This document shows positions 5,533 to 40,870 of a stretch of 41,587 nt of DNA, piece by piece. The translations under genes were made by a program, and so were the position numbers. This DNA comes from an uncultured Clostridia bacterium. GTDB taxonomy: Bacteria; Bacillota; Clostridia; Lutisporales; Lutisporaceae. How positions within the stretch are numbered: the stretch's first letter is position 1; every line of letters starts with the position of its first letter. The stretch is from assembly GCA_937930535.1 (NCBI GenBank), contig CALGKJ010000040.1:1-41587 (forward strand), in the 5' to 3' direction. Below the pieces are notes generated by a model. The model saw nothing but the letters and a program-made list of their open reading frames with translations. It had not been told where the DNA came from and made no database searches.

Positions 5533-5570
5533 AATAGAAAGCTGGGTATCTCACCCAGCTTTCTATTTTA
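5531..5570. terminator. Bidirectional terminator
   Basis: The sequence from AAAATAGAAAGCTGGGT to ACCCAGCTTTCTATTTTA forms a ~17-bp stem with A-rich and T-rich ends, so it can stop transcripts from both sides. It overlaps the stop codons of the two convergent genes. Confidence 0.85.
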
Positions 5571-6504: not shown

Positions 6505-6609
6505 TATAATCACTCCATTTTACATAATCATAAAATACTTTGTTTTCTACACCAGCTTTTATATTTATTGTATTCTATTGCTTTTATTCCGGCTACATTT
6601 ATTTTATAA

Positions 6610-6644
6610 TTGACATATGCAATTGTTGTATTATACAATTATTG
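6610..6644 (+). promoter_or_regulatory. Promoter and palindromic operator of the marR-hgcAB unit
   Basis: TTGACA at 6610-6615 is a consensus -35 box, with TATACA at 6632-6637 (16-base spacer) as the likely -10. An imperfect palindrome (CAATTGTTGTA/TACAATTATTG, 6620-6644) lies across the spacer and -10. A palindrome at this spot fits autorepression by the MarR protein encoded just downstream; that is inference. Confidence 0.65.
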
Positions 6645-6669
6645 TAGATATCAATCCAAGGAGGAAATT

Positions 6670-7146
6670 ATGGAGCTAAGTTTAATAAGGTCATTTCGGA
6701 AGGATTTAAGAAGGCTAGAGCGAGAGGTGGGGCGAAAGCTTAAGGATGACACCGAGTGTTGTGGTGTTACAGTGTCTCAGTGCCATGTTATTCTCGAGAT
6801 AGGCAATAAGGGGGAAATGTCAATTGTTGACCTTGCAGGTATTCTTAATGTAGATACCAGCACTCTCAGCCGCAATATTAATAATATGGTAAATCTGGAG
6901 CTTGTTAATAGGGTCACAAATCCTAATGACAGGCGTTATGTATTCGTAGCCCTTACAGCAAAGGGCAAACAGGTGTATGAATCAATCGAGGATATGTGTA
7001 ACCAGTATTATAATAGGGTATTCAGCCATATAGCACCCGAGCTTCATACTCAGGTCATTGAAGCTTTTAAGCTGATAGTCAGTGCAATACTGAAAGCTAA
7101 TCAGGATGAGGATTGTGGCTGCTGTGGTGCGTCAAGGGATACATAA
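6670..7146 (+). CDS. MarR-family transcriptional regulator with cysteine-rich tail
   Basis: The 158-residue protein has the MarR winged helix: VSQCHVILEIGNKGEMSIVDLAGILN, then a recognition helix VDTSTLSRNINNMVNLELVNR and a wing with DRRYVFVALTAKGK. The ATG at 6670 follows AAGGAGG; an earlier ATG at 6610 overlaps the promoter and is rejected. The C-terminus ends DEDCGCCGASRDT, and further cysteines lie before the helix-turn-helix (TECCGVTVSQC), so a thiol-based or metal signal is possible. The gene is 20 bases upstream of hgcA and probably co-transcribed with hgcAB. Known hgcAB loci sometimes carry ArsR-type regulators; a MarR member here is a variation. The ligand is unknown. Confidence 0.88.
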   Translation: MELSLIRSFRKDLRRLEREVGRKLKDDTECCGVTVSQCHVILEIGNKGEMSIVDLAGILNVDTSTLSRNINNMVNLELVNRVTNPNDRRYVFVALTAKGKQVYESIEDMCNQYYNRVFSHIAPELHTQVIEAFKLIVSAILKANQDEDCGCCGASRDT

Positions 7147-7166
7147 TAGTATAAGGAGGTGTCATT

Positions 7167-8288
7167 ATGTCCGAAATAAACAAACAGCACAACTGCTGAG
7201 ACCCATCGGCTTCAGTTGTGTACAACTGCAATAATGAGAAAAAAGATTATATAACCGGCTATATGGATACTCCCGCCGGAAAAATCCCCATTGTATCAAC
7301 TGTCCTGACAAGGGCGGATCACTGGGGGACTGTAAGGGTACGACTGGATATCAAAAGAAATATGTACCGAGTAACTCCGGGACTGTATGCTGTAGGCTCT
7401 CCAACTAAGGATTCTCCAGTGCTAGTTACAGCAAACTATAAGTTGAGCTTTGATATGCTTAGAAAAGAGCTTAAGAAAATAAATGCATGGATAATGGTAT
7501 TGGATACAAATGGCGTAAATGTGTGGTGTGCAGCAGGCAAGGGAACTTTTGGTACTATTGAGCTGTTGAAGCGGATATATCTCACAAAGCTGAAAAGTAT
7601 TGTTTCCCATAATACAATTATACTTCCCCAGCTTGGAGCTGTGGGCGTGTCTGCTTATGAGGTCAGTAAAAAGTCTGGCTTTAAGATAATATATGGTCCA
7701 GTACAGGCTAAGGATATACCAGAATTTATTTGTAATAACTTTAAAGCGACACAGGAAATGAGAAGAATAAGCTTTAACATTTTTGACAGGCTTGTATTAA
7801 CGCCATTGGAGATGGTTCATACCTGGAAGCTTTTAGGGATTATGTTTGTTTCACTGTTTTTATTTAATCTTGCTGGCGGTGAGTTCAGAGGCTTTATGAA
7901 TATACTGAATCAAAGTATTCATAATCTGTTGTTTTATATTGGTGTTGTTATAGCTGGCTGTGTTGTTACGCCGGCACTGCTGCCTTGGATTCCCTCACGT
8001 GCCTTTGCTGTTAAGGGGCTGCTGCTTGGTGTGCTTTGGTCAGGATTTATGCTTATGTATCCTCAGGGCTTTGGCTTTGCAGCTTACAGCTTACTATACA
8101 AGCTTGGTCACGCAATCATTGGAGCTGTTATTTCCTCTTATTTAGCTCTTAACTTTACTGGCTCTACTACCTATACATCCTTTTCGGGAGTACGCAAGGA
8201 AGTAAAGGCTGCGGCTGCACCTATGCTTGCTGCAATGATTGCCGCATTATTATTTATAGCTGTGAGCTTAGTACTATTGTTTGTGTGA
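7167..8288 (+). CDS. hgcA: HgcA, corrinoid protein for mercury methylation, with in-frame TGA at codon 11
   Basis: The protein contains the HgcA signature NVWCAAGK (residues 118-125, counting from the ATG at 7167), whose cysteine C121 is the lower axial ligand of the cobalt corrinoid. The corrinoid domain (about 28-190) is followed by five membrane helices (about 225-373), as in HgcA. HgcA passes a methyl group to Hg(II) with HgcB. The first codons are MSEINKQHNC, then TGA at 7197-7199, then DPSASVVYNC in the same frame. AAGGAGG sits seven bases before this ATG, whereas the first start after the TGA (GTG, 7218) has no ribosome site and lies within a hairpin. The TGA may encode selenocysteine next to a cysteine; otherwise it is a sequencing error or nonsense mutation, and a 356-residue HgcA could start at 7218. 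HgcA identity is firm; the TGA reading is not. Confidence 0.9.
7213..7228 (+). promoter_or_regulatory. Candidate bacterial SECIS hairpin after the hgcA TGA
   Basis: CAGTTG and CAACTG form a 6-bp stem with loop TGTA. The loop begins 19 bases after the in-frame TGA and has G as its second base. As I recall the bacterial SECIS consensus, a loop 16-37 bases after the UGA with G in one of its first two positions is expected, so the fit is good. A competing 8-bp pairing (CACAACTG at 7188 with CAGTTGTG at 7213) would enclose the TGA. The same repeats could instead be a regulator-binding site. Confidence 0.4.
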
Positions 8289-8298
8289 GGTGTATGAA

Positions 8299-8625
8299 AT
8301 GAAAAGCAATAAGCATCAATATCTAAAAAATATGACAACCTTAAAACTGGATTCAGATAAATGTACAGGCTGCGGCATATGTACTACTGTCTGTCCTCAT
8401 AATGTATTTGAGCTTTCAGCGGGTAAAGCTGGTATATTGGATAGAGATAGCTGCATGGAGTGCGGTGCCTGTGCGAAAAACTGCCCTTTTTTGGCGATTA
8501 CTGTGGATGCAGGAGTCGGCTGTGCCTTTGCCATTATAAATGGTATATTGTCAGGTGGTGCGCCTTCCTGTGATTGTGACGGAAGCAGTAAAAAGAAAAA
8601 GAAGAAGAATACTGGGTGCTGTTAA
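8299..8625 (+). CDS. hgcB: HgcB, ferredoxin-like partner of HgcA
   Basis: The 108-residue protein has two [4Fe-4S] motifs (CTGCGICTTVCP at 22-33 and CMECGACAKNCP at 52-63). It also has the HgcB-specific lone cysteine C75 in VGCAF and a terminal cysteine pair C107-C108 behind a lysine run. HgcB is thought to reduce the corrinoid of HgcA and to bind or deliver mercury through these cysteines. A further CDC (C91, C93) may add thiol sites. The ATG at 8299 follows GAGGTG and lies 11 bases after the hgcA stop; an upstream TTG at 8281 would overlap hgcA and lacks a ribosome site. Gene order hgcA-hgcB is the usual one. A hairpin terminator follows. Confidence 0.93.
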   Translation: MKSNKHQYLKNMTTLKLDSDKCTGCGICTTVCPHNVFELSAGKAGILDRDSCMECGACAKNCPFLAITVDAGVGCAFAIINGILSGGAPSCDCDGSSKKKKKKNTGCC

Positions 8626-8660
8626 CAAATTGTTTATATTGATAAACAAGCCCAAAGAAT

Positions 8661-8690
8661 AATCGACCGGCAATGCCGGTCGATTGATTA
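8661..8690. terminator. Terminator between hgcB and pepF
   Basis: A perfect 11-bp stem (AATCGACCGGC/GCCGGTCGATT, loop AAT) is followed by a weak T-rich tail on the plus strand and lies just past the pepF stop on the minus strand, so it probably serves both convergent genes. Confidence 0.75.
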
Positions 8691-10460
8691 TTTTAGGCTT
8701 ATAAACTTTTCTATATCTTTTTCAACAAGCTTTAGAGAGCTTCTCCAGAAATCTATTGAACGGATATCTATATCCATTTCCATTGCCACGTCTGCAAGCT
8801 TTTTCTTTCCTGTTACGGATAAAAGCTTATCATATTGCGCTATAAAAACTTCGCCTCTCTTTAGGTATTCTGCATACAAACCCTTTGCAAATAGTAATCC
8901 AAAGGCATAGGGGAAGTTGTAGAAGTTATGGGTTGCATAGTAGTAATGGGGCTTGCAGGTCCACATATTTGGATGCAGCTTACTATGATCCAAGCCAGTT
9001 CCATAAGCTTCTTTTTGTGCATTCAGCATTATTTCCTTTAGATCGTTTACTGACAATGAGCCTTCTTCTTCCCTGCGTCTGAAAAGCTCGCTTTCAAATA
9101 AAAATCTGCTGTATATATCAACTATTACCTGTCCGCAGTCTGATATATCATTTTCAAGTATTACAAAAGCTTCTTCTTCATTAGCTTCCTTGAGTGCCGC
9201 TTCTTTTACTATTGTTTCACAGAAAATTGAAGCTGTCTCTGCTATTGGCATTGGATAGTCTGCATTTAGATAAGTCTCATCCATTAGGTTTGCGCCATGA
9301 TAGCCATGTCCAAGCTCATGTGCCAGTGTAGTCATATTGCTGAAGCTGCCGTCAAAGTTAGATAGTATTCTACTTTCCTTTATTACATGCAGATTAGCAC
9401 AGAATGCTCCGCCTCTTTTGCCTTCTCTTGGCTCTGCATCTATCCAGCCGTTATCAAAGGCATAAGCTGCGAAGTCAGCAAGCTTGTCACTAAAGCTTCT
9501 GAAATTCTTTACTATATAATCTCTGGCTTCTTCATATGTAAAGCTCATATCTACGCTGCCCATTGGAGCAAACATATCATGGAAGGGCAACCCTTTCTTA
9601 TGTCCAAGCAATTCAGCTTTCTTAGCATAATATTTATGAAAGGCAGGCAGGCTTTCTCTGATTGCAGAAAGCATCGCATTTAAGGTTTCCATGTCCATTC
9701 TTGCTTCTATAACAGTTCTTTCAAGGGGTGACGCGTAGCCTCTCATTTTTGTGAGGGTGATAACCTCTCCCTTAATACCATTTAGTGCTGCCGCTGAGGA
9801 TTCTTCAATTTTCTTATATGCTTCAAGCTCTGCTTCATATGCAGTTTTTCTCAGCTCTGCATCTGCGTTATATGCCATGTTTCTTACTACTGGAAGGGGA
9901 AGCTTTTTCTGCTCTCCCTTTACTGTTATATCAACAAGCAATGTAGAGGTAAGCATTTCTTGAAGCTTAGCCCATGCATTTGAGCCTGTATTTTGCAGCT
10001 TTGAGACCAATACTTCTTCTTCATCGCTTAAAAGGTATTTTGTCTCTTCAAGGTTTTCTTTAATAAAAAACTCATGCTCCTTCAAAAGCTTGCTGCTTTC
10101 TATCTTGGTGTTAATATCCGAAAGCTTGCTGAGCCATTTCTGGAAGCTTACATCTGCCTTTGTAAGTCCTGTAAGCTTTTCCTGTATTACATCAGAAAGC
10201 TTTAATGCCTTTTCATTTTTTGCATCTACAGTAACTGTAAGCTCGGCATAGTTCATAAGCCTTGTAGCAAGGTGATTGAAATTGTTCATAAGGGTTATGT
10301 ATTCTTCTATCTTATTAACTGCGTTTTCCTGATTGTTCAGATTTTCATCTGCCCATTTGTTTATTCTTTCGATTTCCTTTTCGTACCTTTCATAGTCTGC
10401 CTTAAACTCCGCAGATTCAAAGGAGGTATACAGTGCGTCAAGACTCCATCTTTGATTCAT
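8688..10460 (-). CDS. pepF: Oligoendopeptidase F (peptidase family M3)
   Basis: The 590-residue cytoplasmic metallopeptidase has the M3 zinc motif HELGH in TTLAHELGHGYHG, the downstream glutamate region PIAETASIFCETIV, and a C-terminal segment HYYYATHNFYNFPYAFG typical of PepF. It cleaves oligopeptides of roughly 7-17 residues and helps recycle imported or exported peptides. Length and start (ATG at 10460, after AAAGGTTGGGG) fit the family. It is monocistronic in appearance. A link to the signalling peptides elsewhere in this window cannot be shown. Confidence 0.95.
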   Translation of the reverse strand: MNQRWSLDALYTSFESAEFKADYERYEKEIERINKWADENLNNQENAVNKIEEYITLMNNFNHLATRLMNYAELTVTVDAKNEKALKLSDVIQEKLTGLTKADVSFQKWLSKLSDINTKIESSKLLKEHEFFIKENLEETKYLLSDEEEVLVSKLQNTGSNAWAKLQEMLTSTLLVDITVKGEQKKLPLPVVRNMAYNADAELRKTAYEAELEAYKKIEESSAAALNGIKGEVITLTKMRGYASPLERTVIEARMDMETLNAMLSAIRESLPAFHKYYAKKAELLGHKKGLPFHDMFAPMGSVDMSFTYEEARDYIVKNFRSFSDKLADFAAYAFDNGWIDAEPREGKRGGAFCANLHVIKESRILSNFDGSFSNMTTLAHELGHGYHGANLMDETYLNADYPMPIAETASIFCETIVKEAALKEANEEEAFVILENDISDCGQVIVDIYSRFLFESELFRRREEEGSLSVNDLKEIMLNAQKEAYGTGLDHSKLHPNMWTCKPHYYYATHNFYNFPYAFGLLFAKGLYAEYLKRGEVFIAQYDKLLSVTGKKKLADVAMEMDIDIRSIDFWRSSLKLVEKDIEKFISLK

Positions 10461-10527
10461 TTTTACCCCAACCTTTCACATAATATGGTTTGCCCCACTC
10501 TAAGGCAATGATATAGACACCTATACC

Positions 10528-10567
10528 AGATAAACAACCTAAATGTGCTTAAGCTGTTTATCTATAT
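10528..10567. repeat. Short palindromic repeat, GATAAACAAC family
   Basis: AGATAAACA pairs with TGTTTATCT to make a hairpin whose arms match the ends of the larger repeats at 15424 and 17758. It lies upstream of pepF and may be a shortened copy of the same intergenic element. Confidence 0.4.
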
Positions 10568-10656
10568 AAGCGGCATAAAAAATTATATAGATATATTTTA
10601 TTATTCAACAATTGCTAAATAAATCCTTTAATTTTGTTAAAATCCACTGATATACA

Positions 10657-11751
10657 TTATCTTTTTACAGCAATAAGCTTTTCCTTTAATTCCTTTTCTA
10701 TTGTAGCAAGCTCTACCTCTGCCTGCTGTCTCTTTGTTCTTCCCTCTTGCTGAATATTGATGGTTTCTTCTATTGTGTGTATAAGGTCTGCATTTACCTT
10801 CTTCAAGGTTTCAATATCTACTATGCCTCTTTCTGATTCCTTGGCGATGCTTATTGAGCTTTCCTTAAGCATTTCGGAATTTTTCATAAGCAGTGCGTTT
10901 GTAGTGTCGGTTACTTCCTTTTGTACTGCCAGAGCCTTCTTTTGTCTATATAGGCTTAAAGCAATAACTATCTGGTTTTTCCAGAGTGGTATTGTATTGA
11001 GTATTGAGCTTTGAACCTTTTCAACCAGTACCTGATTATTATTTTGTATCATTCTTATTTGCGGAGCAGTCTGGAGTGAAATCATTCTGCTCAGCTTAAG
11101 ATCATGTACCTTCTTTTCAAATCTGTTTGCAAGCTGTATTGTATCATTAAGTCGTTGTGCATCCATAGCATCATTTGTGGCATCTACTCTTGCCTGCATT
11201 TCTGGTATAACCTTTTCATTCAGCTCCTTAAGCTTTAATGTACCTGCTAATATATAGCAGTTAAGGTTTCCTAAATATTCAAGATTCTTTTCAAATAGAT
11301 AGTCCAGCAGGGTAATATCCTTTAAAAGCTCCATTTTGGATTTATCCAGTGCATCAATAATTTTCTCAATTTCCACGTTAAGCTTCTGATATTTTGCTGC
11401 AAATTTCTGAGTGCTGTTAACAAGAGAGCCGAACAAGGGTATACCTGACATAAAGCCCTTTTTGGGAGACAAGCCGTCTACGTCCAAATCCTTTACCTTA
11501 AACATCAAATCTGTAAGTATCTCACCTACGTATCCTCCGTCCTTTGCTTTTACCTCGTTCAAAACGTTGTCCGCAAAGCTTGCTATCTGAGATTGGGCAC
11601 CTACTCCGTATTGCAGAACCGATTGAGAGTCTTCAATGGTTATTTCGCTCATAATCTGCTGTACCTTTTGTCTCTGTTCTTCTGTAAGCTTTGTTATATC
11701 AACCTCTTCTTGTGGTTGTACTTCCATACTCTTATATTTTTGTAGTTCCAT
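10657..11751 (-). CDS. TelA/KlaA-like toxic anion resistance family protein
   Basis: The 364-residue protein has the mostly helical, coiled-coil-rich layout of the TelA family, including an N-terminal SVLQYGVGAQSQIASFADNVL, a central FMSGIPLFGSLVNSTQKFAAKYQ, and a long charged helical tail. Members were named for tellurite resistance, but many act in envelope stress responses and their biochemical role is not settled. The ATG at 11751 has AGGAGG upstream. No TerD-type partner or xpaC neighbour is present, so only the family name can be given with confidence. Confidence 0.85.
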   Translation of the reverse strand: MELQKYKSMEVQPQEEVDITKLTEEQRQKVQQIMSEITIEDSQSVLQYGVGAQSQIASFADNVLNEVKAKDGGYVGEILTDLMFKVKDLDVDGLSPKKGFMSGIPLFGSLVNSTQKFAAKYQKLNVEIEKIIDALDKSKMELLKDITLLDYLFEKNLEYLGNLNCYILAGTLKLKELNEKVIPEMQARVDATNDAMDAQRLNDTIQLANRFEKKVHDLKLSRMISLQTAPQIRMIQNNNQVLVEKVQSSILNTIPLWKNQIVIALSLYRQKKALAVQKEVTDTTNALLMKNSEMLKESSISIAKESERGIVDIETLKKVNADLIHTIEETINIQQEGRTKRQQAEVELATIEKELKEKLIAVKR

Positions 11752-11803
11752 AGTAATCCTCCTATAAATGTATTAATATACGCAATTTCTCCGCATATGT
11801 CTC

Positions 11804-14800
11804 CTATTCCAGCTTATTTATCTCTTCCTGTAGTATTTTATGTGCAGCAGCGGCTTCACTCATACTTTGCTTTCTAGCTGCCAGCTCCAGCTTAAATGCG
11901 CAGCTCTTGAGCCTGCTAAGCTGAATATGGTTAAAAATCTCCTTAAGCTGATGTGCATTTTGCTCTATTATTATATAATTTTCAGTGATGATAGCATTAC
12001 TTATATTCTGAATACAAAAAGCTATTTTGTCTGTATGAGTTTTATACTGGTCAGTATTTTCATTATTATTTTGTGTTTTTGAGCCGTCTTTTACTATTTT
12101 GGAAACAATATCTGAGGTTATTTTTTCTTCTCTCAGCTTGTTTGCCAGCTCTATAGCCTTAAAAAGCTCCTCTGTTTTAACTGGCTTGGATACGTAATAG
12201 TCCATTCCATGGGATATAAACCGATCTGCATCTCCTTGCAAGGCATATGCAGTTAATGCGATTATTGGTATATGCTCACCAGTAAGCTTTTCAGCATTTC
12301 TTATTTGCTTTGTAGCTTCTATGCCGTCCATTTCCGGCATCTGAATATCCATAAGAATAATATCATACTTATTATTGTTATTTAAAAGCTGTATGGCTTC
12401 TTTGCCGTTATTGGCGATATCTATACTAAACCCTCTCTTTCTCAGCAGGGTAGAAACTGCTATTTGATTTATTCTGTTGTCTTCAACCAAAAGTATACTC
12501 TGTATATTTCTGATTGAAGTCAAATCCTTAATTATGATTGGTTTTTTCTCATTTGTATTTTCCTGACTGATTCCAAAGGGTATAACAAAGTAAAAGCTGC
12601 TGCCTTTACCCTTTTCACTTTCCACCCATATACTTCCACCCATCATTTCTGCTAGTCTTTTGGAAATAGCAAGCCCCAGACCAGTACCTGAGTATTTTCT
12701 TGTAAAGGATCCGTCTACCTGACTAAAGCTTTTAAACAGCTTAGTCATTTCGTCTCTGCTTATACCTATTCCTGTATCAGAAACGGCAAATTTCAATTGC
12801 AAATGTTCATCTATCATAGCCCAGCTCACATCAATGGATACTTCTCCAAAATCAGTAAACTTTACAGCATTTCCTATAATATTATTCAGTATTTGTGTCA
12901 ATCTGACAGGGTCTCCAATTAAATTTTCCTGTATTTCAGCAGCTATGCTGTATTTAAGGCTTAATCCTTTTTCCATAGCCTTTGCTGTATATGTCTTGAT
13001 AACTGTTTTCATAATTTCTCTGAGGTTAAAGCTTATGTCTTGTATAACAAGCTTGCCTGCCTCTATTTTTGAAAAATCCAATATATCATTTAATACTGTT
13101 ATCAGGGAATGTACGGAGCTTTTAATTATATCAAGATATTCCTTCTGCTCATGATCCAGACTTGTCATTGCTAATAAGTCTATCATCCCTGTAATTCCAT
13201 TTATCGGCGTTCTTATCTCGTGGCTCATATTCGCTAGAAATTCACTTTTTGCCATATTGGCAGCTTCTGCCTCGTCCTTAGCTCTTTGCAGCTCTGCTTC
13301 AATTTGCTTTCTTTTTGTAATATCTCTGGCTATGCCTTGCACTCCTACAAGAGTATTCTCTTCGTATATGAGCTGCCTGTTAACCTCCAGAGTTATAGGT
13401 TCATTGTTTTTATTATATATACATATTTCTTCTGTTTTATTGTCGTTCATGATCCTTTGTATATCCAGATTAAAGTCATACCCATTCCGAAAAGATCCTG
13501 GTATTATTATATTTTTTACGTTGATTTGTTTCAGCTCATCAAGGGAGTATCCCATTACCTCTTCCCCTGCTTTATTTACAGAGGTTATATTTCCGCTTAT
13601 ATCATATATAAATACTATATCACTAGCACCTTCAAATAATACTTTATACCTTCTCTCGCTTTCATAGACAGCACTTTCCATCTGCTTATTATGGGTGATA
13701 TCTCTGGCTACCAGAATAGCACCGCTTAATGTGCCGCTGGCATCACATATATGATTGCCGCTTACATCCAGCCATATATAGCTTCCATCCTTCCTGACGT
13801 ACCTGAATTCAACTGACATTCTGGTATTGTCAGGGTTTTTGATACTGCTTGCAATATGCTGTTTAAAAGTACCCTTAATCTTGTGCTTATCCTCCCAGTA
13901 CAAATAACTGAATATATGTGTGCCTAAAAGCTCAGAGACTTCATACCCAAGCAGTTTTTTTGCAGATGGGCTTGCAAATTCTATTATTCCATGAATATTA
14001 CACTTCATTATCAGCTCTGAAATATTATCGGTTATCTGTCTTAGATTTTCCTCACTTTTCTGCAAATCTATGGATAGCTGCTTTTTCGCTGTAATATCGT
14101 CCAAGGTTACCATTAAATTTTTTTCATCGTTTAGTATTATTGGCTGTGAGCTTATACGATACCATTCTGCCACATTGGTATTGTCCACCAGCCTGTTAAG
14201 CTCAATTTCAAAGCCGTACACAGGATAGTCGGATTTCCATACATAGTCTATGATGTTTCTCAGCCGACAGAACATGCAGTTAGCAGCTGCTCCGCAGCCC
14301 TTTTCTTCCAATATACTATTTACACATTTTATGCAATTACCTACTTTGCTTCCTATTATGTCCTCAAGCTTTACCCTCATTGCCTTGGTAAAGGCTGCAT
14401 TTGCATTTCTTATTGCACCGTCAGAAGCCAGTACCAGCATTGCTATGGGTGCTTCGTAGAATACTGCCTTAAAATTCTTTCTTTCATTTATTATATTTTC
14501 TTCTGTATGCTTTAATATAGTTATATCTCTAAATACTAATACTATACCAGTTATGCTGTTATCACTATCCTTTATGGGTGCTGCACTGGCAGACACAAAT
14601 CTTTCCGTTCCATCCTTTGCTATGAGCACTGTATTTTTTTTCAAACCCACCGGTGAGCTGTTTATGGGCGAGCTGCTTATCAGTACCTTTTCTATCAAGC
14701 TCTCTGCGGCTTCCTTGGTTATTCTGTCAATTATATTAAAAACCATATGCAGTGGTTTTCCCAGAGCAGCATTGAGATTCCAGCCGGTAAGTGCTTCCGC

Positions 14801-30417: not shown

Positions 30418-32325
30418 TTATTTATTACTAAATTGCTTAAATAAATCTTTTATTTCTGTAATTCTATCACTATACGATTCTAAATTCAAATCCCGAAAAA
30501 CTCCATTAGCATGTGCTTTTGCCTCTTTATGTGAATAACCAAGATTAATATAGTAACCTAAACAATTATCATAATATTTATCCAAAAGCTTTTTAGGATT
30601 TTTAGATTTGCTTAATTGTAGGTCTAATTCAAATAACGATTTATTTCCGAACGTACTACCCACACCCTGTTTAAAATAGCCTGGTGCAGAATTAATAAAA
30701 CTGTATGCTTTTGTCATTGTTTCATTAAGTCTATCTTCACTATCTGCAAATAGTGAAATACCACATTCTCTAAGCAATGTAAATGAAATCTCATCCATGA
30801 GTGCTATCTCTAATCCCTCAACTACATATGTCCCTGTTTGATAAACATTGTAAAATGAAACTAGCTTTTTGGCAAATTTAGAGCTGTCTGCGAATAACTC
30901 TAAATTTACATCGCTACTAGGTACAACCTTAGAATTACCTCCAGTATAATTGAAAAACTTACTATTTTCAATCTGAGACACAGCAAAATCACCAAAAGGA
31001 ACATAATGCATAAGTGCTGATCTTCCAGCTAATAATAGCAAATTATCTTTCACTAGCTTAAACATTCCATTTTTTTGCTTTTGAATATAATAATTCCCAC
31101 TAGGATCAAAGTACAATATTGGGTTATTTGCACAATAAGTATACAAGTTCAAACTCAAAGGCTCTGTGCCATTTCCCAAATAGCTATCCTCACTAATAAA
31201 CCTGCCCATACTTGGGTCATAATGTCTTGCTCTCAGATAATATAATCCGCTAGTATTATCATATAATTCACCACAGTATCGGAATGGGTTTATCATTCCG
31301 CTTTCATTTATAGAAATTGAATTTCCCCATATATCATAGTTATAGCTTGCCAAAATATTTCCTGATATACCTCTTAGCTCTACTACATCTCCATGACCGT
31401 TATGCAGGTAATATCCTTTTAATCCAGTGCTGTCCTCCCTAGATACTAATTGAGTTCCTGACCTTAGATACCTTGCATTGAGGCTTACTGTTCCATCTGC
31501 TTGTACAGTTCCCTCTGCTATTATATTTGCACCGTCATAGTAGTATCTTGTAGTTATACCATCTTGAGTCTTTTCTACTAGCAATCCATCTCCATTGTAC
31601 TTATTTGTTTCTACCAATACATCATTCTTTATAACTTCAATTAGTCTATTATATTCATCATATTTGTATTCTATTGTATCATCACCAATAAAAGCGAAGG
31701 ATGAATTGTGGCTTGATCTATTACCCGCTTTATCATATGTATATGTTTCATTTCCCTGCGAATTTGATATAATTCGATTTACTTCATCATATGCATATGT
31801 GTTTGTTATCCCATTTTCTGTTTCTGTTAGCCTATTACCATTATCATCATAAGTATAGGCATATGACCTTACAACATCATTAGTAGCATCTTTGTGTAAT
31901 AGGCTGGTTAGACGATTCAGTCCGTCAAAGCTATAGCTGGTTTTCATTCCATTTGCTTGTGTCACTATGTCCAATAGTCCATTAGGTTTATAGCTTAAAT
32001 CTACTTCTTGGGTTTGGCTTGTACCTATTGTCATATGACGTAATCGATTTTGTTGATCATAATTGTAATTCCACACTTGTGCAAATGGTTCTATCAATTT
32101 TGTTCGGTTACCTGCAATATCATATTCATATTCTATAGTCTTCGTATCTGGGAAGATTATCTTGCCTAATGAATTATCATTATTGTAATTATATTGAGTA
32201 GTTCCAATACTGTCAATCATTGTCTTTCTGAGACCGTTTTTATAGTAAGCATATGATGTGTTTAATGTACCTTTTGTCTCGCTAACTAAAAGGTTATGTT
32301 CATCATATACGAAATTAGTTATCAT
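30418..32325 (-). CDS. RHS/YD-repeat protein with C-terminal toxin domain, 5'-truncated
   Basis: The 635-residue frame is a run of YD repeats (YEYDIAGNRTKL, YAYTYDDNGNRLTET, YEYKYDEYNRLIEV) ending in the RHS core signature LYYLRARHYDPSMGRF and YFDPSGN near residue 410. The last ~224 residues differ from the core, as in RHS polymorphic toxins, and end in a charged region (GYSHKEAKAHANGVF); I do not recognise the toxin fold. The YD repeats continue in frame upstream of the ATG (HYNNVIKKTDKNG) to a TAA at 32404-32406 next to the AOR pseudogene. No ribosome site precedes the ATG. RHS proteins are normally 1500 or more residues, so this is a C-terminal piece, possibly silent or a spare tip cassette. 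Confidence 0.85.
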   Translation of the reverse strand: MITNFVYDEHNLLVSETKGTLNTSYAYYKNGLRKTMIDSIGTTQYNYNNDNSLGKIIFPDTKTIEYEYDIAGNRTKLIEPFAQVWNYNYDQQNRLRHMTIGTSQTQEVDLSYKPNGLLDIVTQANGMKTSYSFDGLNRLTSLLHKDATNDVVRSYAYTYDDNGNRLTETENGITNTYAYDEVNRIISNSQGNETYTYDKAGNRSSHNSSFAFIGDDTIEYKYDEYNRLIEVIKNDVLVETNKYNGDGLLVEKTQDGITTRYYYDGANIIAEGTVQADGTVSLNARYLRSGTQLVSREDSTGLKGYYLHNGHGDVVELRGISGNILASYNYDIWGNSISINESGMINPFRYCGELYDNTSGLYYLRARHYDPSMGRFISEDSYLGNGTEPLSLNLYTYCANNPILYFDPSGNYYIQKQKNGMFKLVKDNLLLLAGRSALMHYVPFGDFAVSQIENSKFFNYTGGNSKVVPSSDVNLELFADSSKFAKKLVSFYNVYQTGTYVVEGLEIALMDEISFTLLRECGISLFADSEDRLNETMTKAYSFINSAPGYFKQGVGSTFGNKSLFELDLQLSKSKNPKKLLDKYYDNCLGYYINLGYSHKEAKAHANGVFRDLNLESYSDRITEIKDLFKQFSNK

Positions 32326-33254: not shown

Positions 33255-33572
33255 TTAGTTTAATTTATTCAAAATTGAATTTAGGTCACTTATCTTGTTT
33301 ATTTTATCTAATTGATTGCTATATATTGTATATTGATTATGCTCTGTAAAAATTGTTATATAGTCAGATTCATATTTTTTTTGCTTAATAAACATTAGTA
33401 CTTTAAATGTACTATCTTTAATGTTTTTCACATCATTACCTTTTTTCAAATTAATATACATATATAAGCTATCCTTAATCATACTTCTTATATCTTTAAA
33501 TTTTGGTATCTCATCCAAATTTATATTTTTATCATTCGGATTGGATATTGGATCACTAGGAATAATAATCAT
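33255..33572 (-). CDS. Hypothetical protein (105 residues)
   Basis: A hydrophilic, lysine- and isoleucine-rich protein starting MIIIPSDPISNPNDKNINLD. It has no signal peptide, cysteine pattern or known motif. No good ribosome site precedes the ATG, which follows the RRNPP remnant by 24 bases, so it could be part of a decayed gene. I do not recognise it. Confidence 0.4.
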   Translation of the reverse strand: MIIIPSDPISNPNDKNINLDEIPKFKDIRSMIKDSLYMYINLKKGNDVKNIKDSTFKVLMFIKQKKYESDYITIFTEHNQYTIYSNQLDKINKISDLNSILNKLN

Positions 33573-33596
33573 CCCATAGCAATTTTCTAATATTTC

Positions 33597-33893
33597 TTAC
33601 TGTATATATGAGTTTAATTCTGAATTTATTTCATATTCCCACATACGTATGAATAAGTCGCCATGAAAGTCTTTTTCATTTCTTTCAGCATAATTAGTAG
33701 CATGAATTTTTAGCTCTTCTTTTTCTTTTGGATAAGCACTAACCGTGTAATGATTTTCTTCAAAGCTATAGTAAACTTCTTTTGTAACCATTTCTTGCAA
33801 GTATTTTTCATATGCCCCTTTGTTTTCCATCTTCATTTTAATTTCTGCTTGTGTAGCTACATACTTTAGCCTTTTGCCCAAATCATAACACAC
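33597..33893 (-). pseudogene. C-terminal remnant of an RRNPP-type TPR receptor
   Basis: The 98-residue frame starts with YDLGKRLKYVATQAEIKMKM, closely matching NDLGKHLIYVSTQAEIEMEM of the frameshifted receptor at 1072-2348. The rest diverges. No helix-turn-helix, full TPR array or signal-peptide gene is present, and an in-frame TGA precedes the homology. It begins 13 bases after the S8 protease stop. It is probably the end of a second receptor whose front was lost. Confidence 0.65.
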
Positions 33894-33906: not shown

Positions 33907-35520
33907 CTACTCCGAATCCTTCTCAAATAATCCTATTATATACTCATACAGCCTTATAATATAATCCTCTTGATTATAGTTAAACAGCTTCGCTTTTTTT
34001 AGCTTATCATCACAGCTATTCTCATTATTAGTCAGAAAAATGGTATTAACAGACTCATTAATATTATCAATATCCCCAGCATCAGCTATTAAAATTCTTA
34101 TATCAATTTCCAGCCTTTGTTCTGCAACTGATATACATTTACTATCTGATTCTGCATTTATCCCCAATATAATCAAATCAGGGCTATTTACCTTATATAT
34201 ACCCTTTAGAAGGCTTATACTTTTTTCATTTATTTGGTGTTTTATAAACTCCACCCCAGAAACTTCTAAAGCGGCAATATTGGATACGGCTGTAGGGTAG
34301 TATCCCTTTGCTTCAAATTGATTTTTAAGCATTAATAATGTATCTGTTAATTTATTGCCAGTATAATCGTATACTGCTATTATTGGTACTTCAATTTTAA
34401 TTCTGCTGGATCCATAGTATTTTTTAATCCATTGAGGAGTCCATATTCTTTGTCTTATATTCCTTAATACCTGACAATGTATCCTCTCATTATGATTACC
34501 AATAAAAACTATATTTTTTTCATATGCAAGCAGTTTTTTAATAAGCTTGCTTAGCGAAATGTCTGCTTTTTCACAAGCTTTACCCTCAGCATTTATTACT
34601 ATTGTATCTATTTGCGATACAATATCAGCATTGTTATTAATATATTCTGCTATAGCAGAGTAAATTTCAGAGTAATTGAATTTCTTAATGCTTTCTGCTT
34701 GTACAGCTTCAAAAAAACAGCTTTCACGCCTTAGGGGATATTTCGCAGCTTCCAAGTTAAATATTAAAGCCTTTTCTACCCAATTCATATCTCTGCTTAC
34801 AAAGGTATAAAGCTTTTGTCTGCCTGCATTTTGGGCATTTCTTTCCAGCTCTATTTTTATTTCTTCCAAGGTTATAAGAGGATACTTTTCCATCAGCTTG
34901 CCTACCTCTGCTGTAATAAGAGGAGCTGCGTAGCTGTTGGCAGGAAAAACCTCCGTTTCTGCTCCATCAAATGCCTTAAGCTTATGCCTTCCGCAAGCAC
35001 TTATCTCTATACCATCTAAGGGATAATGATTAAATATATATTGTCCTTCTTTTAAAATACCTTTTCTATCACTCTTTACTCCTATTACATTTAAAAGGGA
35101 TGCAGGATAGGTTTTTATCATTTTATTACTGCAAGCCGCTACAATAATAACACCTTTTTTATATGCGTAGTTTATGATTTTTCTGATTTGTTCAAAGCTT
35201 GTATAATCAATAGTGCCAAGACTTAGGTTTAAAAGCTTGATGTTGTTTTCTACACACCACATTACGGCCTTTAAAAACTGCTGAACATTGCCCTTGCCTG
35301 TATCACCCAGCACCCTGATATCGCTTAACACTGCATCTGAATAATACTTCTTTATTATGGCTGCTACATTTGTACCATGAAGCTCCTGAACAAAATTATC
35401 ATCAGTGTCATTACTTATATTCAGCTCAGGAGATATTTTGACTCTATGAAGAGGCTGTCCAAGATTATACAAACCCTCGTCTATTCCATTGTCTATAACT
35501 GCAATATTTACTCTGCCCAT
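33907..35520 (-). CDS. S8 (subtilisin-like) peptidase of the Clo7bot cluster with extra C-terminal domain
   Basis: Residues 1-225 form a subtilase: catalytic D10 (VIDNG), H48 (LHGTN), oxyanion N132 and S196 (NSYAAP). There is no signal peptide or propeptide, so it acts in the cytoplasm or with the exporter. Residues about 300-470 are a separate domain with VPIIAVYDYTGNKLTDTLL and PDLIILGI, which resemble VLFVAGLAERTNK and PDIIIIGI in the TIGR04066-like protein of the same cluster. It starts three bases after the ABC transporter stop, so the two are coupled. It probably removes the leader of the cysteine-rich precursor. Confidence 0.88.
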   Translation of the reverse strand: MGRVNIAVIDNGIDEGLYNLGQPLHRVKISPELNISNDTDDNFVQELHGTNVAAIIKKYYSDAVLSDIRVLGDTGKGNVQQFLKAVMWCVENNIKLLNLSLGTIDYTSFEQIRKIINYAYKKGVIIVAACSNKMIKTYPASLLNVIGVKSDRKGILKEGQYIFNHYPLDGIEISACGRHKLKAFDGAETEVFPANSYAAPLITAEVGKLMEKYPLITLEEIKIELERNAQNAGRQKLYTFVSRDMNWVEKALIFNLEAAKYPLRRESCFFEAVQAESIKKFNYSEIYSAIAEYINNNADIVSQIDTIVINAEGKACEKADISLSKLIKKLLAYEKNIVFIGNHNERIHCQVLRNIRQRIWTPQWIKKYYGSSRIKIEVPIIAVYDYTGNKLTDTLLMLKNQFEAKGYYPTAVSNIAALEVSGVEFIKHQINEKSISLLKGIYKVNSPDLIILGINAESDSKCISVAEQRLEIDIRILIADAGDIDNINESVNTIFLTNNENSCDDKLKKAKLFNYNQEDYIIRLYEYIIGLFEKDSE

Positions 35521-35523
35521 TAC

Positions 35524-37290
35524 TTAACTAACTCCCTTAAGGTTTGCTTCCTGACTAACCATTTCTTTGTAAAAGCTGTCTTTAGTATACAACTCTTCAT
35601 GTGTGCCTATATCCTTTATTTTACCATTGGACAGTAGTATCACCTTATCCATTTGCTTTAATATATCTGGTTTATGGGTTATGACTATTATGGCTTTATC
35701 GTTAAATTCGTTACCAAGCAATTGATTAACCTGATATTCTGATTCATAATCATAATTCGATGTAGCTTCATCCAGAATAAGTAGTTTTGAGTTTTTTACA
35801 AAGGCTCTTGCCATAGCTACCTTTTGTCGTTCTCCTCCCGATAGTCTCATACCATTGTTTCCCACATTGGTACTATACTTGTCCTGCAATGCCGTAATAA
35901 ATTTATCCGCTCCGCTTTTTCTGGAAGCTCTATATATTTCTTCCTCAGATGCTCTTGAATTCAAGGCTATATTTTTCTTGATATCTGTATTAAAGAGATA
36001 AAATTCCTGACTGACAATAGATATTAAGCTTCGATAATCCTTTAGCTTTATATCCTCTATATTTATTCCGTCCAGCAAAATTCTTCCTTTGGAAGCATTG
36101 CAAAATCTCAATATAAGATTGATTATGGTAGATTTTCCCGAGCCATTGCTGCCTACTATGGCGATTTTTTCACCCTTTCTAACCTCAAAGCTGATATTAT
36201 TTAACACATTTTCTCCTTCTTTATATGCGAAGGATACATTTTCAAAGCTTATATTTCCCACTACCTTATCAGAGCTGTATATTCTGATTTTATTATCTCC
36301 TTCAAGCTCTGCTTCGCTTTTCATATCCAAAAACTCAAAATATCTCTTTGCAGAGGGTATTATATTAGAAAAGCTGTACCCGATATTTAATATTGCATAA
36401 ATAGGATTAGTAACATAGGAGCTGTAGGTTATAAATGCCATCAAGCCTCCAATAGTCAGGCTGCCCGGAAAGAATATCATATATGTACCAATTATATAAA
36501 GGGCATTTGACATAATTCTTGCCGCTGCTGCCTCAGAAAACTCATTAAATTTATCTAGCAGTGCAAGCTTTATTTCAAATTTTACAAGCTTTTTCCGCTT
36601 CCTTATATACTCACCAATCTTAATTTGATCCAAGCCCCACAGCTTTACTTCTTTTATCCCTGCCATAGTATCACCGTACCATGACGAAAACTCCCTATTA
36701 TGCTCTATATACTCCTCCAGCATTTTTCTTCTTTTTCTTGCAAAATATTTTACTAATATATATCTTGGGGGTATTATTATTGTTACCAGTATGGTCAGCT
36801 TCCAGTTAATCAGTAAAAGTCCTGCCATACCGCCGATGAGTCTAAAAACTTGTGCAATTATAAAAAAGGTACTGCGATCAGAAATCCTTGATATATTGCC
36901 TGCATCCATGTTTATATTACTCATTATTTCCATAAAATTTGCGTTTTTGAAATAATCCATATTTAATTTCAGAGACTTCTTAAAAGCCATTTTTGATAAT
37001 GTGAAATTCATTACAGAGTGTATATATGAAAGATATTTTGTCTCTATAATGCTTATTCCCTGCTCAATTATCAATAATAGTAATGTAAATAAAGATAAAT
37101 ACACAACTAATGCAAAGTCACTTTTCAGCAAGCCCTCATCCATCATTGTTCTGCTTATTAGGGGCATAATCAAGCCTATGCCCGCCGAAATAATTATGCA
37201 GATGATTATTCCCACTATTTTTTTAGTATATGGCTTTAGCAGAGACAATACCCTTTTTATAATAGCATAATCTTGTTTTGAAATTTTCAT
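35524..37290 (-). CDS. ABC transporter with fused membrane and ATPase domains (peptide exporter)
   Basis: The 588-residue protein has six membrane helices in residues about 15-300 and an ATPase domain with Walker A GSNGSGKST, signature LSGGERQ, Walker B LLILDEATS and switch histidine in VITHKPD. It has no N-terminal C39 peptidase, which fits with a separate S8 peptidase gene immediately downstream. It most likely exports the modified Clo7bot peptide. The ATG follows TGGGGGAT. A hairpin with a T tract lies between it and the upstream gene at 37416. Confidence 0.93.
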   Translation of the reverse strand: MKISKQDYAIIKRVLSLLKPYTKKIVGIIICIIISAGIGLIMPLISRTMMDEGLLKSDFALVVYLSLFTLLLLIIEQGISIIETKYLSYIHSVMNFTLSKMAFKKSLKLNMDYFKNANFMEIMSNINMDAGNISRISDRSTFFIIAQVFRLIGGMAGLLLINWKLTILVTIIIPPRYILVKYFARKRRKMLEEYIEHNREFSSWYGDTMAGIKEVKLWGLDQIKIGEYIRKRKKLVKFEIKLALLDKFNEFSEAAAARIMSNALYIIGTYMIFFPGSLTIGGLMAFITYSSYVTNPIYAILNIGYSFSNIIPSAKRYFEFLDMKSEAELEGDNKIRIYSSDKVVGNISFENVSFAYKEGENVLNNISFEVRKGEKIAIVGSNGSGKSTIINLILRFCNASKGRILLDGINIEDIKLKDYRSLISIVSQEFYLFNTDIKKNIALNSRASEEEIYRASRKSGADKFITALQDKYSTNVGNNGMRLSGGERQKVAMARAFVKNSKLLILDEATSNYDYESEYQVNQLLGNEFNDKAIIVITHKPDILKQMDKVILLSNGKIKDIGTHEELYTKDSFYKEMVSQEANLKGVS

Positions 37291-37335
37291 AAGTATCCCC
37301 CATTATATCCTTACTCTTACTTGCTCTTATAAATT

Positions 37336-37382
37336 GAAAAAGCCTGGATATAACCTTGCATTTGTATTATACATTCCAGGCT
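37336..37382 (-). terminator. Hairpin with T tract inside the Clo7bot cluster
   Basis: On the minus strand AGCCTGGA pairs with TCCAGGCT around a 26-base loop and is followed by TTTTTC. It could end or reduce transcription between the modification genes and the export genes. Confidence 0.6.
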
Positions 37383-37415
37383 GGTATCAGAATTTTAAGC
37401 TTCATCAGTTTATTC

Positions 37416-37691
37416 TTATTTGCTTACTTCCTTGTATATTATATCCGCTACGTTATTAAAGGTCTTAAATTTGCCAGTTCCCACATCTTCCTGTGGTATG
37501 GCTATATCAAATTCTCTTTCTACATCATGGTAAATGTACAGCAAATCTCTTGCAGACATCATAAATATATTTCCTAAAAACTCTTCATTAAGAATATGGT
37601 CTTCGGCATTTTTCAAATCAATTCCAAATCTTTTATAAAATACAGCCTTTAGCTTGTCTACTATTTCCTGACGATTTATTTCCAGTTTCAT
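37416..37691 (-). CDS. Acyl-carrier-related protein of the Clo7bot peptide maturation system
   Basis: The 91-residue helical protein is shaped like an acyl carrier protein (VDKLKAVFYKRFGID, then a middle segment, then FNNVADIIYKEV). Where the phosphopantetheine serine of a real carrier (DSL) would be, the region reads FMMSARDLLYIYHDVE with no DSL. It matches the ACP-related family known only from Clo7bot-like clusters (TIGR04069-like). Without the DSL motif it probably acts as a binding or scaffold protein. AGGAGAGGATAGG precedes the ATG. Confidence 0.82.
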   Translation of the reverse strand: MKLEINRQEIVDKLKAVFYKRFGIDLKNAEDHILNEEFLGNIFMMSARDLLYIYHDVEREFDIAIPQEDVGTGKFKTFNNVADIIYKEVSK

Positions 37692-37737
37692 ATTCCTATC
37701 CTCTCCTCAATATAATACCATAATTATACATAATTTT

Positions 37738-38901
37738 CTATATTGCGTCAATATCGCCATATCCTGAAAGCACATCTATAATATAGTTGGTCATATCGTA
37801 TGCACTACTAGGATTTTGCATATTGTATACAGGCGTACTCAAGACTTTATACTGTTCTATCTTTTCATCAATAAACCTATAGTCAATTGTTGTATAATAC
37901 TCCTTTGACTTTTCTTTTGAAGTAGTCCAGTCAAAGCTTATGTTTGACATATTAAAACAAGTAATACTACATCCAAGCTTGTATTTTATTGAATTTTGAA
38001 GAAGCTCAAAATATTGATTATTATACATATTATATAATACACTAAGTATTAATGCATCGGCATTTACAGCTCTGGAAATAAGGTATCCCATCACGCCAAA
38101 GTGACCAGTAAAGCTTTTATTTAAAGGCATTATACCATCAGGTATACCTATAATTATTATATCAGGCTTTTCTGCACATTCTATTCTTTTAACAAACCAG
38201 TTGAATAATAGTATTTTTTTATGCTCTGGTATTGAAGGCTCAAACATGAAGCTGGGGATGGAGTGAAAACCCATAAGCTCACAATAGCTTCTGCTGCCTA
38301 CTTGACTGACCTTATAACCTAGCTTTTGCAGGTTATTTCTAAGATCAAGCTGTATTTGAAATTTGTTTGTCCTCTCCGCCAAGCCAGCTACAAATAGCAC
38401 TGGAGTTTCTATGTCATATATTTTATGATTGTCTCTTTTCTCAGTACAGTCTAAAGAATCTCTGAAATCTGATATTTTAGAAGGTCTTTTTAATACATTG
38501 TAATATTTTATGGCTGTGTTATTATCTATACAGAGTTTCTCAATATTATTATACAGTTCATCCTCTAGTTGCATTGTGCAAATAATATTCTTTCCTGCTT
38601 TTACTGCTTTTTCTATATTGGGTCTCATTATGCTGTAGTCAAGCTTATAAATGGATTCTGCCAGCAAAACTGCATCACAGACTTTTAATGCTTCATCAAA
38701 GCTGTCACTTACTTCTATTCCGATATATTCTCCGCCATCGGCCCATGCTGCATCCCTCCCTGCCGGTCCCCAGCCGTACGGAGCTACAAGCCCTGTTATC
38801 TCATACTGCTCTATAAGCTCTCTATTTCTTAAAACAGGGGCAAACTGAGCACTATAGGGATATACCATTACTTTTTCTTTCGCTCTTTCTTTTTTAACCA
38901 T
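37738..38901 (-). CDS. TIGR04066-like peptide maturation protein
   Basis: The 387-residue protein has an N-terminal region with PYGWGPAGRDAAW and CDAVLLAES, then a core (167-260) with TPVLFVAGLAERTNKFQIQL and PDIIIIGIPDGIMPL. This is the layout of the TIGR04066 family, found only beside Clo7bot-type precursors. No canonical P-loop is seen. The biochemical role is unknown. The core is similar to the C-terminal domain of the S8 peptidase of the same cluster. TGGAGG precedes the ATG. Confidence 0.85.
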   Translation of the reverse strand: MVKKERAKEKVMVYPYSAQFAPVLRNRELIEQYEITGLVAPYGWGPAGRDAAWADGGEYIGIEVSDSFDEALKVCDAVLLAESIYKLDYSIMRPNIEKAVKAGKNIICTMQLEDELYNNIEKLCIDNNTAIKYYNVLKRPSKISDFRDSLDCTEKRDNHKIYDIETPVLFVAGLAERTNKFQIQLDLRNNLQKLGYKVSQVGSRSYCELMGFHSIPSFMFEPSIPEHKKILLFNWFVKRIECAEKPDIIIIGIPDGIMPLNKSFTGHFGVMGYLISRAVNADALILSVLYNMYNNQYFELLQNSIKYKLGCSITCFNMSNISFDWTTSKEKSKEYYTTIDYRFIDEKIEQYKVLSTPVYNMQNPSSAYDMTNYIIDVLSGYGDIDAI

Positions 38902-39034
38902 TGCAATTCCTCCATCTTATATAGAAAGCACTAAGTATCCTATATTATTTAACTACTAACATGTGCTTTCTATCAAATATAAATGTCATATCATACTTTA
39001 GATTATGTGAAATCTTTATTGGCATTTATATAGC

Positions 39035-40501
39035 TTAGAACTCATATAAATTTATGGCATCTGCTCTGTTAAAATCGTGTCCCAGTTCTCTTAAAACACA
39101 ATAATCTAAAAGCATTTGGTGTGCATCCAGTCTTGTATTTTCACAATGCTTCAGCTTTGCTTCTTTACTTAGCTTTGTACCGTCATCCGCCGCTACCGCA
39201 CATATCTTGCAGTATCTAAATGCCCAGCAGTTTATACAGCTTTCCTTTGTCAGCCTGCCTACATTAATAATATTTGAGACCTTAGCAATATCAATCCCAC
39301 TATCTATATGTCCCATTTTCAATGCTTCTGATTGCTCGTTTACTTTCTCACAGGGATAAATATTCCCATCAACATCAATAAATAGTTTTTTGATTCCCGG
39401 CAGACAAGGACCGCTGTGATGCTCCATATCAGATAAGCTTTCTGATATATACCTGTTTTTATAAAGCATTTCCTTTGTATAGGTATAGTAGTCTGTTACA
39501 AGCTTTGAGGTATATTTACTATCTAGTCTTTTGTCTGCAAATAAGAAGAATTTAAAGTATTCATATTGAATTTCTTTATAATAATCTACATTGAAATCTA
39601 CTTCCTTATCATCCTTTAAATTAATTGTGCTGTAGGTTCCTCCCTTGCAGTATGAATCCTTTATTGCTTCAAAGGTAGTAAAGAATTCATTTGTACACTT
39701 GAAGCCATCCTCAGGATCTAAAACAGCATTAAACATTATTTTATTTGAATATTCGGGGTGTCGCATTTTTAATATTTCAATATTTTTAATTATGGCATCA
39801 AAGGTGCCTATATTATTGGCTGCGAACCTTCTATTTTTATTATGTATTTCATAAGGTCCGTCAAGGCTTATGAGCATCTGTACTTTATGCTCAGCAAAAT
39901 AATCCATTATTTCTTCTGTTAGTATTGTTCCGTTTGTTGTTAACCCAAAGGTTATTTCCTTGCCTTGTCCCCTTTCCAGGGTATATTCCATACAGGTCTT
40001 AACAAATTGGAATTCCAATAGCGGCTCTCCGCCATAAAACCCTAAGTGAAATTCGTTTGTATCCTTAGATCTGCTTAATGCAAAATCAATTGCCTTTTTA
40101 GCTGTTTCAATACTCATTTTTTTATTTGAATGATGCCTGTTTTCATATGCACCTGAATATATGCAATATTCACATCTTAGATTACACTGCTGAGTTACCT
40201 GCAGCGTCATGGTGCTAATCCTGTTGTTTAGTATATATGGCAGAAGCTCAGTAGCACCATGCTGCACTTCGATAATTCTTTTAGCCGAAAGCAAGCCTTG
40301 TTTTTTCAGCTTATTAATTTCTTTTAGTGCCTCCTTCTCTTCAGCACTACACTCTTTTTCTGTTATTGTCTGACTTAACATCTTTTGAAGCATATCCCAA
40401 GCCTGTTTGGTTGTAGTTATAATATAGTTTTTATTTACATCATAAACATAGTAGCACCCATGAGTTTTAAAAAGATGAATTAAAGGTTTATCATTATACA
40501 T
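39035..40501 (-). CDS. Cys-rich peptide radical SAM maturase (CcpM-like)
   Basis: The 488-residue enzyme has a precursor-binding-like N-terminal region (1-85), the radical SAM motif CNLRCEYC (C106, C110, C113) and FGLTTNGT. A SPASM-type C-terminus carries cysteines in CLPGIKK, GNIYPCEKV, CINCWAFRYCKIC and HCENTR for auxiliary clusters. SPASM enzymes of this type make thioether or other bonds at cysteines of ribosomal peptides. Its substrate is the seven-cysteine peptide encoded immediately upstream. AGAGGAATG precedes the ATG. The bond it forms has not, to my knowledge, been determined for this family. Confidence 0.92.
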   Translation of the reverse strand: MYNDKPLIHLFKTHGCYYVYDVNKNYIITTTKQAWDMLQKMLSQTITEKECSAEEKEALKEINKLKKQGLLSAKRIIEVQHGATELLPYILNNRISTMTLQVTQQCNLRCEYCIYSGAYENRHHSNKKMSIETAKKAIDFALSRSKDTNEFHLGFYGGEPLLEFQFVKTCMEYTLERGQGKEITFGLTTNGTILTEEIMDYFAEHKVQMLISLDGPYEIHNKNRRFAANNIGTFDAIIKNIEILKMRHPEYSNKIMFNAVLDPEDGFKCTNEFFTTFEAIKDSYCKGGTYSTINLKDDKEVDFNVDYYKEIQYEYFKFFLFADKRLDSKYTSKLVTDYYTYTKEMLYKNRYISESLSDMEHHSGPCLPGIKKLFIDVDGNIYPCEKVNEQSEALKMGHIDSGIDIAKVSNIINVGRLTKESCINCWAFRYCKICAVAADDGTKLSKEAKLKHCENTRLDAHQMLLDYCVLRELGHDFNRADAINLYEF

Positions 40502-40620
40502 ATAATCATTCCTCTGCTAAATAAGTTTTATATAATCACCTATTGCTTCTGCAATAGGACAGTATTTTCATATTCACACAGTAAGTCTTTTATATAATTG
40601 AGCTTATCATTGTTAAACCA

Positions 40621-40642
40621 GAGGAGGGTAAAGCCCTCCTCT
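40621..40642 (-). terminator. Intercistronic hairpin after the precursor gene
   Basis: GAGGAGGG and CCCTCCTC form a perfect 8-bp stem 13 bases past the precursor stop. The T tract is weak, so it may allow partial readthrough and give more precursor than maturase. Confidence 0.65.
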
Positions 40643-40654
40643 AAATACTAAATT

Positions 40655-40870
40655 TTAGTAGTAAGCAGAATCGTTATTGTAGTTTCTGCTGCTGTATTCG
40701 CTGTTTTTCAAGGATTGTCCATTCCAGTATTGAGTGTTTCCATATGCACTGCTGCTATATGGCTGACATGTACTGCACCAGCATGGTGCATAGCAGGAAC
40801 ATACACAAACACAAGCATAAGCTTCTACATTTTCAAGCTGGGGTTGTAAGTTTTTACCTAGTTTCTTCAT
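40655..40870 (-). CDS. Clo7bot-family seven-cysteine peptide precursor
   Basis: The 71-residue precursor has a leader of about 19 residues (MKKLGKNLQPQLENVEAYA). A core follows with exactly seven cysteines at 20, 22, 24, 26, 30, 32 and 35 (CVCVCSCYAPCWCSTC). The tail is rich in serine, asparagine and tyrosine and ends NNDSAYY. The alternating cysteines, leader and adjacent maturase match the Clo7bot family of clostridial modified peptides. AGGAGGTTTTTTT precedes the ATG. It is first in the cluster. The mature structure and activity are unknown. Confidence 0.93.
   Translation of the reverse strand: MKKLGKNLQPQLENVEAYACVCVCSCYAPCWCSTCQPYSSSAYGNTQYWNGQSLKNSEYSSRNYNNDSAYY

Follow-up and report, generated by a model that had tools for sequence, protein, structure and literature searches.

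Described relatives of the locus

A cluster of the CLI_3235 family from Paenibacillus polymyxa #23 has been expressed whole in B. subtilis, yielding SacP23, a peptide that withstands heat and inhibits Gram-positive bacteria, among them MRSA (PMC10731318). The peptide (m/z 3404) is blocked to Edman degradation, its crosslinks were not determined there, and the authors suggested, from an annotation as ATPase subunit, that the TIGR04066 protein of the cluster confers immunity (PMC10731318). Set against fragments of its precursor, the mass of 3404 allows several fits, and the printed precursor sequence has 60 aa versus 61 in the paper's text. In Roseburia intestinalis L1-82, a five-gene cluster shares TIGR04068, TIGR04066 and TIGR04069 proteins, a subtilase and an ABC protein with the locus studied here, though no precursor was recognised there and it has no product (PMC4573289). 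For the later steps, the Qhp system offers a precedent of cytoplasmic leader removal by a subtilase followed by ABC export (QhpE/QhpF)—i.e., QhpE cuts a 28-aa leader off thioether-crosslinked QhpC ahead of that export (PMC7876137).

A sequence-only reading of the DNA studied here had held the mature peptide, its crosslinks and its activity to be not described. Because whole-cluster expression of SacP23 gives an antibacterial (PMC10731318), product and activity are partly described, and what stands of the claim concerns the chemistry: we found no located crosslink in the literature for any CLI_3235 member, though subscription papers on CcpM could hold one.

A complete CLI_3235/CcpM cluster

The window, i.e., the whole stretch of 41,587 nucleotides that was analysed (contig CALGKJ010000040.1 of an uncultured Clostridia bacterium), carries six contiguous open reading frames on the minus strand (33907-40870), all in one direction and in the order precursor, maturase, TIGR04066 protein, acyl-carrier-related protein, ABC exporter and subtilase. 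The features are as follows (cut-offs here and below are the curated NCBIfam values, in bits):

40655-40870, minus strand: precursor peptide, 71 aa, CLI_3235 family (TIGR04065, 39.2 bits, cut-off 26)
40766-40813, minus strand: cysteine-rich core C20-C35, CVCVCSCYAPCWCSTC (from the sequence and the CxC spacing of the family)
40619-40643, minus strand: stem-loop directly after the precursor stop codon, GAGGAGGG...CCCTCCTC (z -2.6 here)
39035-40501, minus strand: radical SAM/SPASM maturase CcpM (TIGR04068, 586 bits, cut-off 500)
37738-38901, minus strand: TIGR04066 protein, predicted DUF1611/DgcN fold with a degenerate P-loop (421 bits, cut-off 200)
37416-37691, minus strand: acyl-carrier-related protein without the phosphopantetheine serine, Ala47 (TIGR04069, 88.5 bits, cut-off 70)
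35524-37290, minus strand: ABC exporter, permease-ATPase, MsbA-like (PF00664, PF00005)
33907-35520, minus strand: subtilase, probable leader protease (PF00082)
33910-34620, minus strand: C-terminal half of the subtilase (residues 301-537), putative decayed TIGR04066-like domain (hhalign)

The precursor, maturase, TIGR04066 and TIGR04069 proteins each score above their own cut-off (four of four), and the locus is a complete CLI_3235/CcpM system, a family already known (TIGR04065/04068/04066/04069). The earlier claim of a complete radical SAM peptide cluster at these positions, with a TIGR04066-like protein, an ABC exporter and an S8 peptidase (the latter two matched by Pfam), is borne out. Its "Clo7bot-type" name is not, because the maturase lies far under the TIGR04334 cut-off (62.9 vs. 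600 bits) and the precursor matches TIGR04065 only—the sole NCBIfam family at E <= 0.1, with no match to TIGR04333. What the locus shares with Clo7bot (TIGR04333/04334) is a clostridial, radical SAM-modified cysteine peptide. Lachnocin clusters (NF038169/NF038170) likewise have a related maturase, and a subtilase with a fused TIGR04066-like domain, but their precursor is shorter and no carrier protein was seen in them. With the SacP23 cluster the locus shares a seven-cysteine CLI_3235 precursor, TIGR04068, TIGR04066 and TIGR04069 proteins, an ABC exporter and a subtilase; the two differ in organism, core and gene order, and the SacP23 cluster holds additional genes, with annotations of an ECF sigma factor and an unc-89-like protein.

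A Pfam search found no C39 peptidase domain in the ABC exporter. The small genes downstream (33255-33893) had no relative near other clusters when compared with related loci, and the cluster therefore ends at about 33907. Beside it lies an RHS-repeat protein (30418-32325), and two small, distantly related open reading frames (E 2.4e-4) sit at opposite ends of the window (1072-1401 and 33597-33893).

An alignment search of genome contigs with TIGR04066 returned 77 related loci, mostly from Clostridia with a few from Paenibacillus (78 with the window); scanning the contigs with only the maturase gave no locus, and plasmid searches returned distant maturases only and no precursor. Of 391 genomes sampled from the class, 15 have a TIGR04066 protein scoring above the cut-off. 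All six gene types occur in 38 of the 78 loci, the others often being truncated at contig ends, and the acyl-carrier-related gene occurs in 73, which argues that the grouping of the six genes is not chance. Within the available DNA a subtilase is present in 53 loci and not seen in 25, so leader removal may vary. The genome of the window holds a second CLI_3235 cluster (L056, G000:C54, 11757-14046, and L078, G000:C239, 1-2743), with the maturase gene split across two contig ends and a precursor of 64 aa with seven cysteines.

Precursor, maturase and expected product

The precursor consists of a leader (residues 1-19), a cysteine core (residues 20-35, with cysteines at 20, 22, 24, 26, 30, 32 and 35) and a cysteine-free tail rich in Ser, Asn and Tyr (residues 36-71). 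The sequence-only reading had counted seven cysteines, which is confirmed here, but seven is no constant of the family: 64 non-redundant relatives have between 3 and 7 cysteines, and half of them an odd number. These relatives have a leader of about 20 residues with KKLGK and an EAY/EAF end, a core of about 14 residues, and a cysteine-free tail of about 27 residues that is rich in Ser, Asn, Thr, Gly and Ala and variable among them; a KKLGK...ETVEAY-type leader is carried by 76 matches. Against expectations from shuffling within the core, neighbouring cysteines two apart (CxC) are in excess (176 observed, 66 expected) and adjacent cysteines nearly absent (1 observed, 90 expected). This alternation would suit a strand with every sulfur on one face, though it does not locate crosslinks, and together with the odd numbers in half of the relatives it argues against simple full disulfide pairing. 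The correlation of cysteine number with Ser/Thr/Asn in the tail (r 0.47) does not establish a pairing of cysteine donors with tail acceptors, as tail length correlates too (0.44). Between precursor and maturase genes, a stem-loop with z <= -2 is found in 42 of 48 gaps (median -5), as would be expected of a device that keeps precursor transcripts more abundant than those of the enzymes.

In the maturase, the CX3CX2C motif and the seven SPASM cysteines are invariant across 83 sequences, which, with the TIGR04068 score, upholds its earlier naming as a SPASM radical SAM enzyme. Among solved structures, the closest in sequence is that of CteB, 5wgg (E 9.7e-35, maturase residues 5-435). CteB is a SCIFF maturase that forms thioethers, and the match, given its span, takes in the leader-binding N-terminal region of that enzyme. 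Its scores against RumMC, PapB, lachnocin and SCIFF enzymes are of similar size and do not separate a sactipeptide (cysteine thioether to the alpha carbon) from a ranthipeptide (to the beta or gamma carbon).

From the genes present, the conservation of catalytic residues, the predicted folds, the homology between domains and the lost serine, we estimate a probability of roughly 60% that the cluster makes a secreted, radical-SAM-modified, cysteine-rich CLI_3235 peptide by way of thioethers, a scaffold pair, leader cleavage by the subtilase and ABC export. Specifically, the N-terminal region of the maturase would bind the conserved leader (KKLGK...ENVEAY), and the enzyme, using one radical SAM cluster in addition to its SPASM auxiliary clusters, would join cysteine sulfurs to carbons of other residues, the thioethers probably running from the alternating CxC strand to nearby residues or to the cysteine-free, Ser/Asn/Thr/Tyr-rich tail. 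Fold and residue loss suggest that the TIGR04066 protein and the serine-less acyl-carrier-like protein have no catalytic part and serve as a scaffold or as an adaptor for quality control. Once modification is done, the cytoplasmic subtilase would take the leader off, guided there by its TIGR04066-like tail domain (as QhpE and domain homology suggest), and the ABC protein would export the product.

By analogy, the product is most likely a bacteriocin against Gram-positive bacteria. We think it rather unlikely that it is a signal or metal-binding peptide with no antibacterial action, a reading that would fit the high cysteine content and the variable tails. SCIFF-type peptides are linked to quorum sensing in clostridia, which also counts in its favour. 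Yet SacP23 is active on Gram-positive bacteria (PMC10731318).

The helper proteins

The cluster is one more member of a family with a published antibacterial product, and its interest lies in the helper proteins, as the comparison offers fold and evolutionary explanations for the families TIGR04066 and TIGR04069. Newly described here are the predicted TIGR04066 fold, the apparent kinship of the subtilase tail, the loss of the carrier serine as against its retention in sister systems, and the hairpin after the precursor gene.

The AlphaFold2 model of the TIGR04066 protein (pLDDT 93.6, pTM 0.92) has the two-domain Rossmann plus P-loop fold of DUF1611/DgcN proteins. Its best seven Foldseek matches in the PDB are all DUF1611 proteins (top 2.7e-13), with the N-acetyltransferase DgcN (7xrj) among the DUF1611 matches; Z is 19.7-23.5 over about 305-315 residues of DUF1611 structures (23.5 over 306 residues for 2g0t) and drops to 14.9 with other P-loop proteins. 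Weak sequence support for this kinship comes from PF07755, which is touched by 8 of 71 TIGR04066 members, and two fused relatives (L070 and L071, below) stand above its cut-off. The P-loop reads GLAERTNKFQ here and is not intact: across the 71 proteins the Walker Gly is present in 3, the following Thr in 1 and the Lys in 70, so some ligand binding may remain. As modelled, then, TIGR04066 is a DUF1611/DgcN fold with a degenerate P-loop, an assignment that is new.

The model of the acyl-carrier-related protein (pLDDT 92.8) has the four-helix ACP fold, with helix II beginning at residue 47, and the structures that match it best are ACPs (TM about 0.7-0.77 relative to the query), none with a Foldseek E below 0.001. 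The earlier remark that this protein seems to lack the DSL serine is correct for the window, where Ala47 takes its place, and is valid family-wide, because, of 67 sequences, 42 have Pro in the serine column, 17 have Ala and only 4 have Ser. Of the two roles then proposed for the protein, the thioester is not supported, since the serine is lost across the family; a scaffold is plausible and now has comparative evidence in its favour.

The two proteins might still be catalytic, with a DgcN-like acyltransferase acylating the precursor and the carrier-like protein holding the acyl group on a different residue or without a covalent bond. We regard this as distinctly improbable: the closest folds of TIGR04066 do include DgcN 7xrj, the P-loop Lys is kept (70/71), and SacP23 is blocked to Edman degradation (PMC10731318), but 63 of 67 carrier-like sequences lack the serine, the Walker Gly and Thr are all but gone (3/71 and 1/71), and a thioether near the N-terminus could also cause the Edman block.

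The subtilase has the triad D10/H48/S196, in invariant columns, and its catalytic domain begins at the N-terminus, which leaves no space for a signal peptide ahead of D10. Its best named relative is QhpE (NF049966), at 89.3 bits vs. a cut-off of 165, and it may work like QhpE though it is no member of that family. The Qhp system (QhpC/D/E/F) shares radical SAM cysteine thioethers, a cytoplasmic subtilase for the leader and ABC export with the locus, but its product is an enzyme subunit and no carrier-like protein is named in its operon; the QhpE model has 219 positions only, and thus no room for a TIGR04066-like tail. That tail (residues 301-537) aligns with positions 80-383 of the TIGR04066 profile (hhalign probability 95, pairwise E 3.7e-8), which points to the C-terminal half of the subtilase as a decayed relative of TIGR04066. 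To our knowledge, this homology has no earlier description.

These comparisons speak against the published suggestion of an immunity role for TIGR04066, to which we give very little credence. TIGR04066 does belong to a cluster whose expression sensitive B. subtilis survives (PMC10731318), but its predicted fold is soluble and DUF1611-like and does not support the ATPase-subunit annotation, it is apparently homologous to a protease domain (the subtilase tail), and it adjoins the maturase in nearly every locus. A further-reaching reading would be that the serine-less carrier and the P-loop-degenerate TIGR04066 protein are a former acyl-carrier/DUF1611-like enzyme pair kept as a scaffold, which via the subtilase tail would couple completion of the thioethers to removal of the leader, the sister systems retaining the original chemistry; we put this at somewhat under even odds.

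Sister systems with a fused subtilase

At five loci (L070, from the genome of the window, L071, L212, L213 and L214) a single protein fuses a subtilase to a TIGR04066-like domain, and its P-loop is GTSS[KR]QGKFT in the four of them for which the pattern was read. All five clusters carry a carrier protein with an Asp-Ser motif, and a sixth serine-bearing carrier (L193, Glu-Ser) lies beside a subtilase truncated at a contig end. The serine is thus present in 6/6 sister carriers vs. 4/67 of the CLI_3235 type (Fisher P about 1e-6, an indication only, as the sequences are related and the set is small). Most simply read, the comparison would mean that the CLI_3235 lineage reduced an ancestral pair of carrier and P-loop protein to a scaffold. 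It also highlights the unstudied sister systems, where a genuine carrier protein, together with a P-loop that is intact, may carry out new peptide chemistry.

The L070 locus (G000:C166, about 4811-14341) is another radical SAM system, its maturase nearest TIGR04463/Clo7bot and below the cut-offs; it also holds a methyltransferase, the serine-bearing carrier, the fused subtilase-DUF1611-like protein and two ABC half-transporters, and no precursor was recognised at the locus. In Paenibacillus, L212 (5136-8723) and L213 (6145-9810) combine a small protein that is PqqD-like by eye and a short radical SAM protein with the serine-bearing carrier and the fused protein. At L074 (7868-13057), a lachnocin cluster with precursor and maturase above their cut-offs, the subtilase carries a TIGR04066-like domain.
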